This document shows, piece after piece, positions 938 to 34,293 of a stretch of 38,347 bases of DNA; the first letter of the stretch is position 1, and each line of letters starts with the position of its first letter. A program made the position numbers and the translations under genes. This DNA is from a virus, in the IMG/VR virus record IMGVR_UViG_3300047554_000198, positions 1 to 38,347 of that record. The stretch is one strand, 5' to 3'. The notes under the pieces were generated by a model. It was not told the DNA's origin. It ran no database searches and saw only the letters and a program-made list of their open reading frames with translations.

Positions 938-960
938 AGGCCCTTCGGGGCCTCTCTTCT
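938..960 (+). terminator. Rho-independent terminator after the capsid gene
   Basis: A perfect six-base stem AGGCCC/GGGCCT (938-943 and 948-953) closes a TTCG tetraloop and is followed by a pyrimidine-rich tail. It sits 14 bases after the capsid stop codon. It probably limits read-through, so that capsid mRNA exceeds that of the downstream genes. Confidence 0.85.
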
Positions 961-30828: not shown

Positions 30829-31054
30829 ATAGGTTAGTTACATCAGCAGTTAAATCGTTGAATTTGTCAATGTAGCGCTTAATTAAGGCTTCATCATCAT
30901 CGAAAGTATTGTGAACGACACATGATCGCTCTTTAATAAGCCATTGATGATAGTAATCTCTACCCTCAACTTTGAACATATCAAGGGCAAATTCAGCGTC
31001 CATTGTGGCTTGATCTTCTGGAAAGTTATCAACAGCAGATTGATATAAAGACAT
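30821..31054 (-). CDS. Hypothetical acidic protein (77 aa)
   Basis: The product is MSLYQSAVDNFPEDQATMDA, EFALDMFKVEGRDYYHQWLI, then RSCVVHNTFDDDEALIKRYI and a short tail. Its CVVHNTFDDDE part recalls the gene at 29584. Mostly helical and acidic; family unknown. AAGGGAAAAAT upstream supports the start. Confidence 0.6.
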   Translation of the reverse strand: MSLYQSAVDNFPEDQATMDAEFALDMFKVEGRDYYHQWLIKERSCVVHNTFDDDEALIKRYIDKFNDLTADVTNLYM

Positions 31055-31069
31055 GATATTTTTCCCTTC

Positions 31070-31147
31070 TTAGGCAGTAAGCCAGACAATGATAAGGGCA
31101 ACAAAGCCCAAAGCGTAGATTGTAAGGTCAACGATACGGTTATTCAT
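31070..31147 (-). CDS. Tiny membrane peptide (25 aa)
   Basis: I read this frame directly: MNNRIVDLTIYALGFVALII followed by VWLTA. It is one membrane span with a short polar head. AAGGGG lies eight bases upstream of the ATG, the same leader as at 30034. Short length makes the call tentative. Confidence 0.45.
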   Translation of the reverse strand: MNNRIVDLTIYALGFVALIIVWLTA

Positions 31148-31164
31148 GTTTAAGCCCCTTGAGT

Positions 31165-31329
31165 TCAATGATACTTGTTTGTAAATGCTTCTTCTTTTGC
31201 GATAGCGTCCTGCCACTTCTTAGCTAAAGTGTCGTGCTTTGTTTTATCCGTGTTAGCCTGAAAAGCCTTATATGTTTGCTCTATTTTGGCTTGAAGTTTA
31301 CGCCATTGGTTTGTTTGTGCGTGTGTCAT
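31165..31329 (-). CDS. Small Lys/Gln-rich helical protein (54 aa)
   Basis: I read this frame directly: MTHAQTNQWRKLQAKIEQTY, KAFQANTDKTKHDTLAKKWQ, DAIAKEEAFTNKYH. Entirely helical and basic. Its start has the leader AAGGATAAACTACC, shared with the next gene upstream. Function unknown. Confidence 0.6.
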   Translation of the reverse strand: MTHAQTNQWRKLQAKIEQTYKAFQANTDKTKHDTLAKKWQDAIAKEEAFTNKYH

Positions 31330-31350
31330 GGTAGTTTATCCTTCACTTGG

Positions 31351-31509
31351 TTACTGGTTGATGGTGTTGATTGAATGGACTGGGAAAGAATCGCTAGGGA
31401 TATTGATAAGGTTACCAAACCCATCATCAGCACAAAACAGAATGACTGTTCGTGTGATGTAATAGCTAGGCATTGTGACTGCCCAAAAGCCTAATAGTGT
31501 CTGTGTCAT
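31351..31509 (-). CDS. Small protein, first gene of the leftward operon (52 aa)
   Basis: I read this frame directly: MTQTLLGFWAVTMPSYYITR, TVILFCADDGFGNLINIPSD, SFPVHSINTINQ. AAGGACACGCTACC precedes the ATG. It is the gene nearest the control region and so probably the first expressed. No family recognised. Confidence 0.6.
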   Translation of the reverse strand: MTQTLLGFWAVTMPSYYITRTVILFCADDGFGNLINIPSDSFPVHSINTINQ

Positions 31510-31563
31510 GGTAGCGTGTCCTTCGCAAGTTTATGCCCTCAAGGGCTGGTTGATAGAAACTAC

Positions 31564-31579
31564 ATTCTAGCCAAGATAT
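31564..31579 (-). promoter_or_regulatory. GGCTAGAAT element, copy 2
   Basis: ATTCTAGCC here is identical to 30813-30821, and ATAT follows at the same distance in both. It lies 55 bases upstream of the first leftward gene. Confidence 0.45.
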
Positions 31580-31666
31580 TTGTAGTATCTGACTAGGTGT
31601 TTACCCTAGATTGTCTGCTCACTTGGCTTGCCTATTACCATGCAACAACCATGCCAGTATGAATTG

Positions 31667-31680
31667 AATACTTCAGTATT
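31667..31680. promoter_or_regulatory. Palindrome AATACT-TC-AGTATT
   Basis: A perfect six-base inverted repeat with a two-base centre, downstream of the probable leftward promoter. It could be an operator or a small hairpin in the early transcript. Confidence 0.4.
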
Positions 31681-31717
31681 ACTATTACAGATAAACTGAC
31701 GGAATACCGACACAAAC

Positions 31718-31745
31718 CTTACAGTTACCTTACAAATGGTGTCAA
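31718..31745 (-). promoter_or_regulatory. Probable leftward early promoter
   Basis: On the minus strand, consensus TTGACA (31745-31740) is followed after 16 bases by TGTAAG (31723-31718), four of six matches to TATAAT. The -35 box overlaps the first 20-base tandem repeat, so a protein bound to that repeat would control this promoter. Confidence 0.45.
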
Positions 31746-31777
31746 CTTTCCGACACTGGTGTCAATCTTTTGACAGA
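31738..31777. repeat. Tandem 20-bp repeats with palindromic core
   Basis: Two units follow directly, both starting GGTGTCAA (31738 and 31758). The second has a perfect inverted repeat TGTCAA-TCTT-TTGACA (31760-31775); the first keeps TGTC...GACA (31740-31755). A dimeric regulator binding two adjacent sites would explain the layout. TTGACA hexamers occur on both strands here. Confidence 0.65.
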
Positions 31778-31780
31778 TAT

Positions 31781-31799
31781 CTGACTAGTAACTGACTAG
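31781..31799. repeat. CTGACTAG direct repeats
   Basis: CTGACTAG occurs at 31781-31788 and 31792-31799, 11 bases apart, and again at 31589-31596. The first and third are both preceded by TAT. One helical turn of spacing suggests protein binding. Confidence 0.45.
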
Positions 31800-31843
31800 G
31801 TCTAGGTAGTAGCTAATAGGTGCTACAAAGCCCCTCACACTAC

Positions 31844-31930
31844 AATGTTTCACGATAATGTTTCACGATAGTGCCTACAATGTTTCACGGAATTGTTTCA
31901 CAGTAGTGTTTCACGACAATGTTTCACGGA
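31844..31930 (+). repeat. Six 13-bp iterons with parS-half-site core
   Basis: TGTTTCAC occurs at 31846, 31859, 31881, 31894, 31907 and 31920, all in the same orientation. The unit is 13 bases, of the form AATGTTTCACGNN. Two units lie back to back, a nine-base spacer (agtgcctac) follows, then four more back to back. TGTTTCAC is exactly the left half of the bacterial parS consensus TGTTTCACGTGAAACA, but no inverted half is present. Iterons followed by G-rich and AT-rich DNA are the usual form of a replication origin. Confidence 0.85.
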
Positions 31931-31939
31931 TACTAACAT

Positions 31940-31955
31940 GGGGGGAGGGGTAGGG
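31940..31955 (+). other. G-rich block
   Basis: Runs of six, four and three G separated by A and TA lie directly after the last iteron and a short ATG-containing spacer. It might form a two-tier quadruplex or mark the border to the AT-rich tract. Nothing else explains it. Confidence 0.4.
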
Positions 31956-32141
31956 CGTGTGAGTTACTTTTGTGGGAGCCTACTAAGTTCACAAAAAGGA
32001 GTAATTAAGAACATGCAATATAGTGCATAAAAGTCTAATAAAATCAAAGTAGTTGCTTAAAAAAGAGGCAGTTGTAAGGTTAGGTAGTTAATTAGGGACA
32101 GGTTAGGCTATGGAATCCGTACACGAGGGGCTGACATAGGG

Positions 32142-32172
32142 CCTTGTGAGAGCCTTTAAAGTGCCCACAAGG
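32142..32172. other. Hairpin upstream of the rightward promoter
   Basis: CCTTGTG (32142-32148) can pair with CACAAGG (32166-32172), with 17 bases between. It lacks a T-run, so it is not a standard terminator. CCTTGTG appears again at 32282 in the leader. Confidence 0.35.
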
Positions 32173-32248
32173 GGCTATGAAGTAGGTAGGCTGGATGGGT
32201 GTCTAGACCAAGGAATTAAAAATAATTGAAAAAAGATACAAAAAAGAC

Positions 32249-32277
32249 TTGACTTTTCTTTAAAAATATGCTACCCT
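32249..32277 (+). promoter_or_regulatory. Rightward promoter before the terminase genes
   Basis: TTGACT (32249-32254), a 17-base spacer and TACCCT (32272-32277) preceded by TGC make a host sigma-70 type promoter with an extended -10. The upstream stretch is A-rich and could act as an UP element. Transcription should start near 32284 and read the terminase, portal and head genes. Confidence 0.7.
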
Positions 32278-32281
32278 CGAA

Positions 32282-32298
32282 CCTTGTGTTCAACAAGG
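32282..32298 (+). other. Hairpin at the transcript 5' end
   Basis: CCTTGT (32282-32287) and ACAAGG (32293-32298) form a six-base stem with loop GTTCA at the predicted 5' end of the rightward mRNA. A 5' stem of this sort commonly protects mRNA from decay. Confidence 0.6.
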
Positions 32299-32340
32299 AA
32301 AGTAGACCACAACAGGAACTCAGGTAAAACAACATAAGAT

Positions 32341-32363
32341 ACTTAGTAGACGGGCTACTAAGT
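32341..32363 (+). other. Nine-base perfect hairpin in the leader
   Basis: ACTTAGTAG (32341-32349), loop ACGGG, CTACTAAGT (32355-32363). No T-run follows, so this is structural RNA or a protein site and not a terminator. Confidence 0.7.
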
Positions 32364-32473
32364 TAAAACAATACGGGATGTTCAGGAAAGCACCATATGT
32401 GCACAAGGGTAGTAGAAATACTATAAGTAGTTAAATACTTAAGGTATATATTTACCAAGATTCCTGACTTAGA

Positions 32474-32501
32474 AGCCATTAAGATTAACTTCTTAGTGGC
32501 T
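32474..32501 (+). other. Eleven-base hairpin in the leader
   Basis: AGCCATTAAGA (32474-32484) pairs with TCTTAGTGGCT (32491-32501) through one G-T pair, closing a six-base loop. No T-run follows. Confidence 0.65.
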
Positions 32502-32514
32502 AGTACTATGCCCG

Positions 32515-32603
32515 TATCAACACGCATGGGGATTACGAAGCATGACGAACACCTGCATAGGCAGAAATGAGTTGGTCAACAGTAGTCTCCAGCCGTGTTG
32601 GTA
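32515..32603 (+). ncRNA. Possible multi-branched leader RNA
   Basis: TATCAACACG (32515-32524) can pair with CGTGTTGGTA (32594-32603) over ten bases with one G-T pair. Inside lie smaller stems CTGC/GCAG (about 32552-32563) and GTTG/CAAC (about 32573-32582). The structure ends 36 bases before the terminase start. It could be a regulatory leader RNA or a packaging-site signal. No known riboswitch or tRNA pattern is recognised. Confidence 0.4.
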
Positions 32604-32639
32604 TTTAATAACAATAACACATCTCCTAAAAGGACAAAG

Positions 32640-33032
32640 ATGGAGCAAGAGACAGAACAGCGTAGAAAAGCAGGTAGACCCAAGAAGGGTGAGATAGTAG
32701 CCAAGAAGCAGAAGAACAAGGGTGTCCTTGGTCGTCCCAAAGGGGATACAGCTATTATCAATGAATACAAGGCTAGGATGTTAAACAGTCCTAAGTCAGC
32801 TAAAGTCCTAGAGGCTATCTACGATGCAGCTCTTAATGATGACCATAAGAACCAAGCTGCTGCATGGAAGTTGATTGTAGACCGTATTGTCCCAGTGTCT
32901 GCCTTTGAAGCTACTAAAGCTGGAGGTTCTACCCCACAGATCAGTATCAACATCAGTGGTTTAACTTCTCCTGTAGTTGAGGCTGAGGAAGTAACCTACG
33001 ATATTGAGGATGTAGAGGACAAGAATGGCTGA
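32640..33032 (+). CDS. Small terminase subunit (probable)
   Basis: ATG 32640 follows AAGGA; an upstream ATG at 32595 lies in the leader structure and has no site. The 130-residue product begins with a basic part, QRRKAGRPKKGE, containing the AT-hook core GRP, repeated as LGRPKGD. Then come helices (EYKARMLNSPKSAKVLEAIY, NQAAAWKLIVDRIVPVSAFE) and an acidic C-terminus (EEVTYDIEDVEDKNG). Position just before the large terminase, DNA-binding head and acidic tail fit a small terminase, which recognises phage DNA for packaging. It overlaps the next gene by eight bases. Confidence 0.75.
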   Translation: MEQETEQRRKAGRPKKGEIVAKKQKNKGVLGRPKGDTAIINEYKARMLNSPKSAKVLEAIYDAALNDDHKNQAAAWKLIVDRIVPVSAFEATKAGGSTPQISINISGLTSPVVEAEEVTYDIEDVEDKNG

Positions 33033-34293
33033 ACTTAACTTTCAGCTGTTGAAGTGGCAACAAGAGGTCTTCAAGAACCAAACTAGGTTTAAGGTCGTCG
33101 CAGCCGGCAGGCGTTGTGGTAAGTCCAGACTATCCGCTGTAAGCCTCCTTATAGAAGGTTTAAACTGTCCTGAAGGGTCAGCTGTGATGTACATAGCTCC
33201 TACCTTAGGACAAGCTAGAACAATTATCTGGGACTTGTTACATGAACTTGGACGACCAGTCATTAAGTCATCACACATCAATAACCTCGAAATCCTTCTC
33301 GTCAACGGTAGAAAGATACTGGTTCGTGGTGCTGACAATCCTGATTCTCTGCGGGGTGTGTCTCTTACCTATGTGGTTCTAGACGAATGTGCTTTTATCA
33401 AAGAGGATGTCTGGCAGAAGATTATCCGAGCTTCCCTGTCAGATAAGAAGGGTAGAGCTTTATTTATCTCAACACCGTCAGGCCGTAACTGGTTCTACGA
33501 TGTCTTTAAGTTAGGTCAGGAAGAAACTGATGATGAGTGGAAGTCATGGCACTTCACTACCAAAGACAACGAGACTATCGACCCCAAAGAGATTGAGGCT
33601 GCTGAGAGAACCTTAAGCTCCTTTGCTTTCAAGCAGGAATACCTGTCCAGCTTTGATAATGCAGGGCAAGAAGTCTTCAAGGAGGATTGGATCAAATATG
33701 CCCCTGAGCCTCAGTATGGGTCTTATGTCATAGCCATTGACTTGGCTGGTTTTGAGGATGTATCAAAAAATGCTGGTGCAGCCAAGAAAAGACTAGACGA
33801 AAGTGCCATCTCGATCGTTAAGGTAGAGGACAACGGTAACTGGTGGATTAAGGACATCATTCATGGACGCTGGGACATTCGTGAAACTGCTAGTAGGATT
33901 CTTATGGCTGTGCGTGACCATCAGCCCATTGCTGTTGGAATTGAACGAGGAGCTTTGAAGAACGCAGTTCAGCCATACCTCAATGACTTGATGAGAAAGA
34001 ACAATGTCTACTGTCATGTGACAGACTTGACACACGGGAACAAGAAGAAGACTGACAGGGTTGTTTGGTCTTTACAAGGTAGGTTTGAACATGGCAGGAT
34101 CACCTTGAACGATAACTTGGACAAGAGTGATTGGAAAGAGTTTATTGACCAGTTCCTGATGTTCCCTACAGCTGGCGTTCACGATGACTTAATAGATAGT
34201 TTGTCTTATGTTGACCAACTTGCTGTAACTAGTTATAATACAGATTATGACGACGATGAATACGAAATACTTGACCCTATAAGCGGCTATTAA
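33025..34293 (+). CDS. terL: Large terminase subunit
   Basis: The 422-residue DNA-packaging motor shows Walker A AAGRRCGKS (26-34), Walker B VVLDE (117-121) and the coupling motif STPSGRN (149-155). The RNase H-like nuclease domain has AIDLAG (D239) and, at the C-terminus, HDDLIDSL (D387, D388, D391), with ERGALKNAV between. The motor pumps DNA through the portal and cuts at the end of each headful. The type (headful or cohesive ends) cannot be fixed from motifs alone; the circularly closing assembly favours circular permutation. Expression follows the small subunit by overlap. Confidence 0.93.
   Translation: MAELNFQLLKWQQEVFKNQTRFKVVAAGRRCGKSRLSAVSLLIEGLNCPEGSAVMYIAPTLGQARTIIWDLLHELGRPVIKSSHINNLEILLVNGRKILVRGADNPDSLRGVSLTYVVLDECAFIKEDVWQKIIRASLSDKKGRALFISTPSGRNWFYDVFKLGQEETDDEWKSWHFTTKDNETIDPKEIEAAERTLSSFAFKQEYLSSFDNAGQEVFKEDWIKYAPEPQYGSYVIAIDLAGFEDVSKNAGAAKKRLDESAISIVKVEDNGNWWIKDIIHGRWDIRETASRILMAVRDHQPIAVGIERGALKNAVQPYLNDLMRKNNVYCHVTDLTHGNKKKTDRVVWSLQGRFEHGRITLNDNLDKSDWKEFIDQFLMFPTAGVHDDLIDSLSYVDQLAVTSYNTDYDDDEYEILDPISGY

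Follow-up and report, generated by a model that had tools for sequence, protein, structure and literature searches.

Several structured RNAs described in phages offer points of comparison for the locus analysed here. In HK022, according to excerpts of PMC9378689, the put sites are structured RNAs of ~70 nt with two stem-loops; they lie in two places, in early transcripts, downstream of host-type phage promoters, with putL just downstream of PL. The cabRNA of staphylococcal phages, as outlined in parts of PMC10686824, is a structured phage RNA from the terS-terL region that is unrelated in sequence between phages; it triggers CBASS and is made from the sequence of the terS/terL genes. Among the open-licence PMC papers searched it is the nearest published idea on structured RNAs near terminases. 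Pseudo-ToxI, in the portion of PMC3475682 that concerns it, is a phage-borne noncoding RNA that copies a known short antitoxin repeat and can evolve by repeat expansion and recombination. The abiF RNA (RF03085) is a 37-nt hairpin with its own loop sequence and acts as an antitoxin, neutralising the AbiF toxin by binding, in trans too (excerpts of PMC12373285). GOLLD and ROOL are noncoding structured phage RNAs with large folds (GOLLD often >800 nt) and Rfam families, often located near tRNAs and described in parts of PMC12286853 without an established function.

Here we analyse a 38,347-nt stretch of viral DNA (the window; positions 1 to 38,347 of IMG/VR record IMGVR_UViG_3300047554_000198), and within it the untranslated region preceding the terminase genes. 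Judged from sequence, predicted folds and relatives, this leader holds two independent elements, of which one, the leader RNA, is lineage-specific and the other, a module denoted E2, is mobile.

A structured leader upstream of the terminase genes

All window features given below are on the + strand. The terL gene (33025-34293) matches PHROG and Pfam terminase families and its assignment is secure. The small ORF directly upstream (32640-33032), which matches no PHROG or Pfam family, is presumed to be terS from its position. Phage isolates with a close TerL were absent: all 2,662 matching records were less than 60% identical to the window TerL, the top-listed one at 26.8%. We took as relatives the best 80 of 491 IMG/VR stretches encoding relatives.

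A σ70-type promoter motif (TTGACT-17-TACCCT, 32249-32277) places the expected start site near 32283, leaving an untranslated leader of ~357 nt (32283-32640) before the ATG of the presumed terS, in agreement with the roughly 355 bases given by a first-pass annotation of this DNA. TTGAC followed by a −10 element (at least 3 of 6 matches, 16-18 nt spacing) is present in 55/55 type-I-like leaders, window included, and this rule is passed by 1.3% of shuffled upstream sequences. The −10 element of the window (TACCCT) is poor, and a general promoter scan omits the window promoter. The gap between the −10 element and the aligned start of the leader is 17 nt in 44/55 leaders and 31 nt in the window.

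The region from 32279 to 32640 (362 nt) folds at −105.4 kcal/mol, compared with −72.6 ± 5.0 kcal/mol for 100 shuffles, none of which was as good (z = −6.63). All four stems proposed by the first-pass annotation were recovered (32282-32298, 32341-32363, 32474-32501, and the long-range stem 32515/32594, here 32516-32603), as was its observation that none carries a T-run terminator: a + strand scan yields one weak call (32589-32601), which is part of the E2 module and is without a real T-run. The 5′-terminal hairpin P0 (CCUUG..CAAGG, 32282-32298) is predicted from the fold, and a GAAGG..CCUUC hairpin was seen by eye at this position in many relatives. The predicted hairpin AGCCAUUAAG..CUUAGUGGCU (32474-32501) is replaced in many relatives by a palindromic UACUCUAGAGUA-type hairpin, also seen by eye. 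Rfam 15 gave no match at the gathering cut-off in the whole window; two matches within 31050-32700 lie far below the cut-offs (E = 1.9 and 4).

The divergent intergenic region of the window contains five + strand copies of TGTTTCACG (31846-31928; starts at 31846, 31859, 31881, 31907 and 31920), partly spaced 13 nt apart, which look like iterons or operator sites.

A leader RNA closed by a long-range helix

The first element is organised around a long-range helix that the first-pass annotation had not described, P1, in which 32313-32328 pairs with 32451-32466. Its outer part, P1a, joins CAGGAA (32313-32318) to UUCCUG (32461-32466), with two-sided changes at 3/6 pairs. A conserved internal loop follows (CUCA, 32319-32322, opposite AAGA, 32457-32460), and the inner part, P1b, joins GGUAAA (32323-32328) to UUUACC (32451-32456), with two-sided changes at three pairs. 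The window P1 thus reads CAGGAA-cuc-(a)GGUAAA with UUUACC-(a)aga-UUCCUG, and in most relatives it reads CAAGAA..AAAUGAAG with CUUCAUUU..UUCUUG. The strings GAACUCA and AGAUUC are invariant in 48/48 aligned rows, which is partly selection, as most rows were fetched or cut using part of those letters. P1 encloses P2 (32341-32363), a hairpin with an ACGGG loop found by fold and alignment (32339-32365 alone, z = −4.38); P3 (GCAC..GUGC, with a conserved CACAAGGG element, 32390-32409), identified by fold and conservation and outside the compensatory count; and P4 (32418-32447), a thermodynamic prediction. When 32309-32467 is folded alone, P1, P2 and P3 all appear in the minimum-energy structure (z = −3.98), and RNAalifold recovers P1 unaided.

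In an alignment of 48 sequences, 93.3% of the cells of the drawn structure are paired, and 10 of its 23 pairs show two-sided change (50 cells); none of 500 shuffles reached any of these values. Versions of the structure slid along the alignment are 31.8-51.3% paired. One of the five measures, the number of further pair types, does not exceed the shuffles (14, shuffle mean 15.8). A blind covariation ranking (APC-corrected G-test on pairs among 142 columns) placed 45-70, 7-214, 16-205, 46-71, 15-206, 18-203 and 5-216 among its top nine column pairs; seven of the nine are P1 pairs or the two pairs of the ACRRG repeat described below, and the P2 pair 38-52 ranked eleventh. Against a tree-based null, 0.05 null pairs are expected at the score of the best pair and up to ~9 at the other scores, with single P1 pairs at 0.33 (7-214), 0.43 (16-205) or worse. 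Because single pairs are thus not significant once relatedness is modelled, the case rests on many pairs of the structure ranking high together. We consider the structure of the leader elements well supported, and since the compensatory changes fall in a helix enclosing ~120 nt, they argue for constraint at the level of RNA. The earlier proposal that the region may be a regulatory RNA or give rise to a stable small RNA fits in part: compensatory changes, whose absence would have counted against it, are seen in relatives and indicate RNA-level structure, and the single RNA it envisaged gives way to two independent elements.

A covariance model of this RNA (R1) matches 33/69 relatives at E = 0.01 or better, a count that includes some near-duplicates and mostly sequences used to build R1. 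The leader RNA lies upstream of terS in 29 of 30 further loci, the other record (L084) ending too early. R1 matched 19 of 25 records scanned, in each case without a second hit above 24 bits.

The CAGGAA sequence is duplicated in the window (32313-32318 and 32384-32389), and either copy can pair with UUCCUG (32461-32466). P1 therefore has a competitor: the minimum-energy fold of the whole leader swaps P1 for another pairing, which uses the second copy.

Two identical pentamers in the leader RNA

The ACGGG of the P2 loop (32350-32354) recurs 18 nt further on, in a joining strand (32373-32377), a repeat absent from the first-pass annotation. The top-ranked covarying pair, 45-70, corresponds to the first R of both copies of this ACRRG pentamer and 46-71 to the second R. 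Selection on P1 alone yields 60 distinct bodies. The copies are identical in all 55 leaders in which both are readable (AGG, 32; GGG, 16; AAG, 7); four of the remaining bodies keep P1 with a different P2, and one (L217) is probably a chance match. The patterns used to fetch the loci required RR in the loop or in both copies, and identity was a criterion in an early script; one fetch pattern and the final count of ACRRG made no selection for identity. That the copies are identical rather than complementary suggests that both meet the same partner.

A search for 7-mers complementary to GACRRGC or UACRRGA, spanning −3 to +4 kb of the 55 leaders, revealed no place at which most leaders of a type have such a partner. 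The one 150-nt bin with at least three complements holds GCCTGTC at −300 to −150 in 4/32 AGG leaders, and some complementary 7-mers of the first scan are coding chance hits, among the matches listed. TCTTGTA occurs 3.2-3.7 kb downstream in 4/7 AAG leaders with enough sequence, compared with 2/21 AGG and 1/10 GGG leaders; it lies within late genes, is a weak lead and may reflect only relatedness. In the window, CCCGT (32511-32515) was rejected as a partner of ACGGG, being missing at that place in the close relative L002, which also has no E2 at the corresponding place.

Two further readings of the leader were set aside. Some relatives have AUGAG after the second copy where others read GUG, AGG or AAG, and as this start is not kept there is no conserved ORF that would encode a leader peptide. 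A CACAAGRGG-like element is present in most aligned rows; as a packaging or origin repeat it was rejected, the window having three scattered matches where 0.7 are expected and 2/100 shuffles reach three.

A hairpin at the terS start codon

A further hairpin, also absent from the first-pass annotation, is predicted at 32620-32642, where CAUCUCC pairs with the start region of terS (Shine-Dalgarno AAGGA, 32630-32634; AUG, 32640). Folded alone it has z = −1.49 (19/200 shuffles as good), and it is found in 52/55 leaders, with AUCU/AGAU in 41 and the double change AUGU/ACAU in 11. Its distance from the leader RNA ranges from 39 to 212 nt in these 52 leaders. A sequence resembling it precedes terS in other leader types too. 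We consider it probably a separate translational control of terS.

Leader types are exchanged within one slot

The seven closest relatives of the window encode TerLs 94-98% identical to its own, and together with the window they carry three leader types: that of the window, L002 and L003 (the last placed by its R1 match); that of L004 and L006; and that of L001, L005 and L007. Across the 80 relatives and the window, 61 leaders were usable, after six without a promoter by our rule and 14 that are short or without terS were left out. These form at least seven groups (I, 27; II/Ib, 15; III, 8; IV, 3; V, 3; two pairs; L064 unplaced), where type I comprises 25 leaders grouped by BLAST plus L003 and L013, whose promoters were misplaced by the script and which R1 matched, and where the promoter of one pair (L008/L036) is perhaps misplaced. 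As the groups are BLAST-based, a single RNA may be spread, in distant forms, over more than one of them: L059, L024 and L025 group with type II yet keep P1, and type IV also has the GGACACAAGAGG element.

Type V, whose carriers L001, L005 and L007 are among the relatives with 94-98% identical TerL, has nothing visible in common with type I. It gave no Rfam match in L005 and looks ornate, but one sequence of it folds no better than shuffles (z = 0.25); its structure is unproven and perhaps pseudoknotted. Type V leaders, ~290 nt in length, were observed upstream of terS in L001, L005, L007, L317, L320 and L325-L327, nearly identical across the carriers seen, some of these loci being the same contig.

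Upstream of terS in L023, L059, L079 and L080, P1 is kept and P2 is replaced by another hairpin of the GCCUGACCCCAC kind. The same kind of P2 is present in type II leaders that yielded no P1, and a domain exchange is possible. Pfam gave no match for a small ORF in the leader of L004.

E2 has a constant frame and a variable interior

The second element, E2 (32516-32603; z = −5.28 alone), has no Rfam entry and is found in at least 120 viral stretches. The family alignment divides it into an outer helix (AACACG/CGUGUU, 32519-32524/32594-32599), an internal loop (CAU/AGC, 32525-32527/32591-32593), an inner helix (GGGGAUUA/UAGUCUCC, 32528-32535/32583-32590) and a variable interior (32536-32582). 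We searched viral contigs with the pattern ACGCATGRGG N20-50 CCTCAGYCGT. Among 130 distinct copies, outer pairs 2-5, which lie outside the searched letters, are 92-99% paired, with outer pair 2 being AU in 116, UA in 7, CG in 5 and GC in 1; at outer pair 1, 64 copies have C-G and 51 have a G.G mismatch. Pairing is 92-98% at inner pairs 1-4 and 26-40% deeper inside. High pairing in the frame and low pairing inside indicate that the frame is constrained and the interior free.

Interiors and flanks are combined as a mosaic. The 127 copies compared fall into 78 interior clusters, of which 25 have at least two members and 24 of these 25 are combined with two or more flanks; a single 3′ flank type with 10 members carries eight interiors. 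Interiors are common to the window clade and to phages in which the closest ORFs downstream show no match to the window TerL: L077/L112/L118 have one in common with L202/L206/L258, and L326, which has a type V leader, has another in common with L246. Tandem copies, seen by eye in several loci, are joined by stretches closed by GUUGGUG..CACCAAC. Within the window clade, E2 is present in 5 of the 67 members with enough upstream sequence (window included), behind type I or type V leaders.

TerL is visible in 55/116 E2 loci, as counted by phmmer with hand-picked TerL seeds, which misses TerLs unlike the seeds; this count was preferred to PHROG labels of ORFs near E2, which do not resolve to individual loci. 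In 48 of these 55, TerL is encoded downstream of E2 and on its strand, and in 36/55 it is within 2 kb of E2, compared with 25% at random positions in those loci. One-per-species bacterial genomes (n = 84,980) gave 25 matches to E2, with the extended frame in two (L294, L310); the others, without that frame, were taken as chance. One E2 array had no match among plasmids, and blastn with array stretches and a single E2 as queries retrieved no phage isolate that carries a complete E2. The environmental record MW202484 matched 20 nt of the E2 3′ arm. Partial matches pointed to Iodobacter phage PhiPLPE, Pseudomonas phage Itty13 and Salicola phage CGphi29, and in the stretches of these phages that were examined no 5′ arm was seen bar a chance-like one-mismatch match in L314. 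The unannotated gap upstream of terS in Itty13 (L314:1880-2450) contains, by eye, tRNA-like stretches and odd insertions.

Orphan abiF RNAs near E2

Of 50 records drawn from the 116 E2 loci, three contain an abiF RNA above the curated cut-off (L216:2788-2824; L208:3400-3436, − strand; L184:1269-1305), at 86, 337 and 103 nt from E2, respectively, and none of 50 control phage records does; this enrichment is not significant by itself and is suggestive only. We found no Abi_2 protein in these three records, which are 4.0-5.3 kb each, a length at which neither the closeness of the abiF RNA nor the lack of AbiF counts for much. A T-run follows the abiF hairpin of L216, making it terminator-like. 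The window itself has no match to RF03085. tRNAs were found in 7/50 E2 loci scanned.

An orphan abiF RNA was also observed upstream of the terminase in Salicola phage CGphi29 (L315:2003-2039).

Possible functions of the leader RNA and E2

We tentatively propose that the region from the late promoter to terS serves as a slot for accessory structured RNAs. Here the slot would hold the leader RNA (P0-P3, 32282-32466), starting at the 5′ end of the transcript, followed by E2 (32516-32603), whose stem frame is constant and whose payload is interchangeable. Both would act in trans as stable RNAs originating from the terminase transcript. Their most likely use would be as decoys, or as mimics of antitoxins, against bacterial defences that use RNA; this would account for the fast swapping of RNAs and payloads with the terminase unchanged. 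We infer transcription, stability, action in trans and a role in counter-defence from these patterns, and hold this reading with somewhat less than even confidence. The slot neighbours of known function, tRNAs and the abiF RNA, act in trans. Against action in trans, the leader RNA, unlike E2, is seen only upstream of terS and in one strong copy; its near-fixed distance from the promoter also fits a role in cis; and E2 has no known partner. A bolder version, to which we give somewhat lower credence, would see an RNA-only accessory island before the terminase genes, with plug-in E2 scaffolds whose payloads are exchanged across unrelated phages, beside orphan antitoxin RNAs: an arsenal of decoys against RNA-dependent defences, in which the leader RNA would be one resident.

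The strongest rival, which we consider less likely, is control in cis: the leader RNA would bind the host RNA polymerase from which it emerges and render it resistant to pausing and termination across the long structural operon, much as put does in the early genes of HK022, with E2 a tolerated passenger. The leader RNA begins where the transcript is expected to begin, its spacing from a host-type promoter is nearly fixed, it was seen only ahead of the terminase genes and no second strong copy was found; this tie to promoter and terS keeps the rival strong. Its variable distance from the Shine-Dalgarno hairpin suits antitermination and opposes control of terS translation, and no RNA polymerase gene was found among the 20 window proteins scanned. 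However, close relatives carry different leaders, whereas a put RNA works by a specific fold on the polymerase, with antitermination by way of the β′ zinc-binding domain, and HK022 has two put sites where a second copy was not found here. Terminator-like sites in the late region are not clearly above chance (8 vs. 4.9 ± 2.3; 16 vs. 11.7 ± 3.7, both strands), although the one at 938-953 (+) has a G+C-rich stem of six pairs. Because swapping with the terminase unchanged suits accessory RNAs exposed to changing selection better than an essential part, we prefer counter-defence in trans to a put-like antiterminator.

A role in DNA packaging, with the leader or E2 serving as a pac/cos site or as a packaging RNA for TerS/TerL, was among the functions first suggested for this region and appears improbable. 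The position beside the terminase genes in phages with different TerL families speaks for it. The compensatory changes in the helix closing ~120 nt indicate RNA rather than a DNA site, E2 is confined to the few clade members counted above, and leader types differ between phages whose TerLs are near-identical. Packaging RNAs of the phi29 type have complementary loops for intermolecular pairing, and the repeated pentamers of the window are identical.

Least probable of all is a riboswitch or attenuator acting on terS through the hairpin at 32620-32642: that hairpin is kept by compensatory change in type I relatives, with similar sequence in other types, and the loss of P1 in the full-leader fold would allow two folds, but the leader-hairpin distance varies, modules or small ORFs intervene in some relatives, and no intrinsic terminator with a T-run follows the leader, the weak + strand call lying inside E2.

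Counter-defence and late-gene control in phages are usually sought among proteins. If the trans-acting reading is correct, an exchange slot with a recognisable frame and many payloads would be a sequence handle for RNA-based counter-defence, and E2 would be a natural RNA scaffold. Should the leader act in cis instead, it is still a conserved RNA that no Rfam family matches, and its function is directly testable.

Comparison with known systems

The letters of both motifs, searched in open-licence PMC papers, matched only in a parasite PCR context. The window leader resembles put in lying, to judge from the promoter motif, directly downstream of a σ70 promoter. It differs in size and architecture from the ~70-nt, two-stem-loop form given in the excerpts of PMC9378689: P1 (32313-32466) encloses P2-P4, there is one strong copy, it precedes late genes, and antitermination is only a candidate function. 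GOLLD and ROOL share with it the character of a structured noncoding phage RNA, and their Rfam models gave no match at the gathering cut-off in the window or in 33 E2 loci. The abiF RNA is linked to E2 through the three records described above, and neither window element matches its hairpin as described in excerpts of PMC12373285.

Like cabRNA, the window RNA is a structured RNA of the terminase region, where different phages have unrelated sequences; unlike cabRNA in the parts of PMC10686824 that define it, it lies in an untranslated leader that has a promoter motif of its own and shows compensatory changes. Type III antitoxins are tandem, near-identical repeats, whereas the window has one E2 and tandem units elsewhere differ inside. 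Pseudo-ToxI nevertheless appears to be the best precedent for a phage antitoxin mimic: where it copies a known short antitoxin repeat, as the consulted portion of its source has it, E2 units have a common frame, differing interiors and no known toxin.
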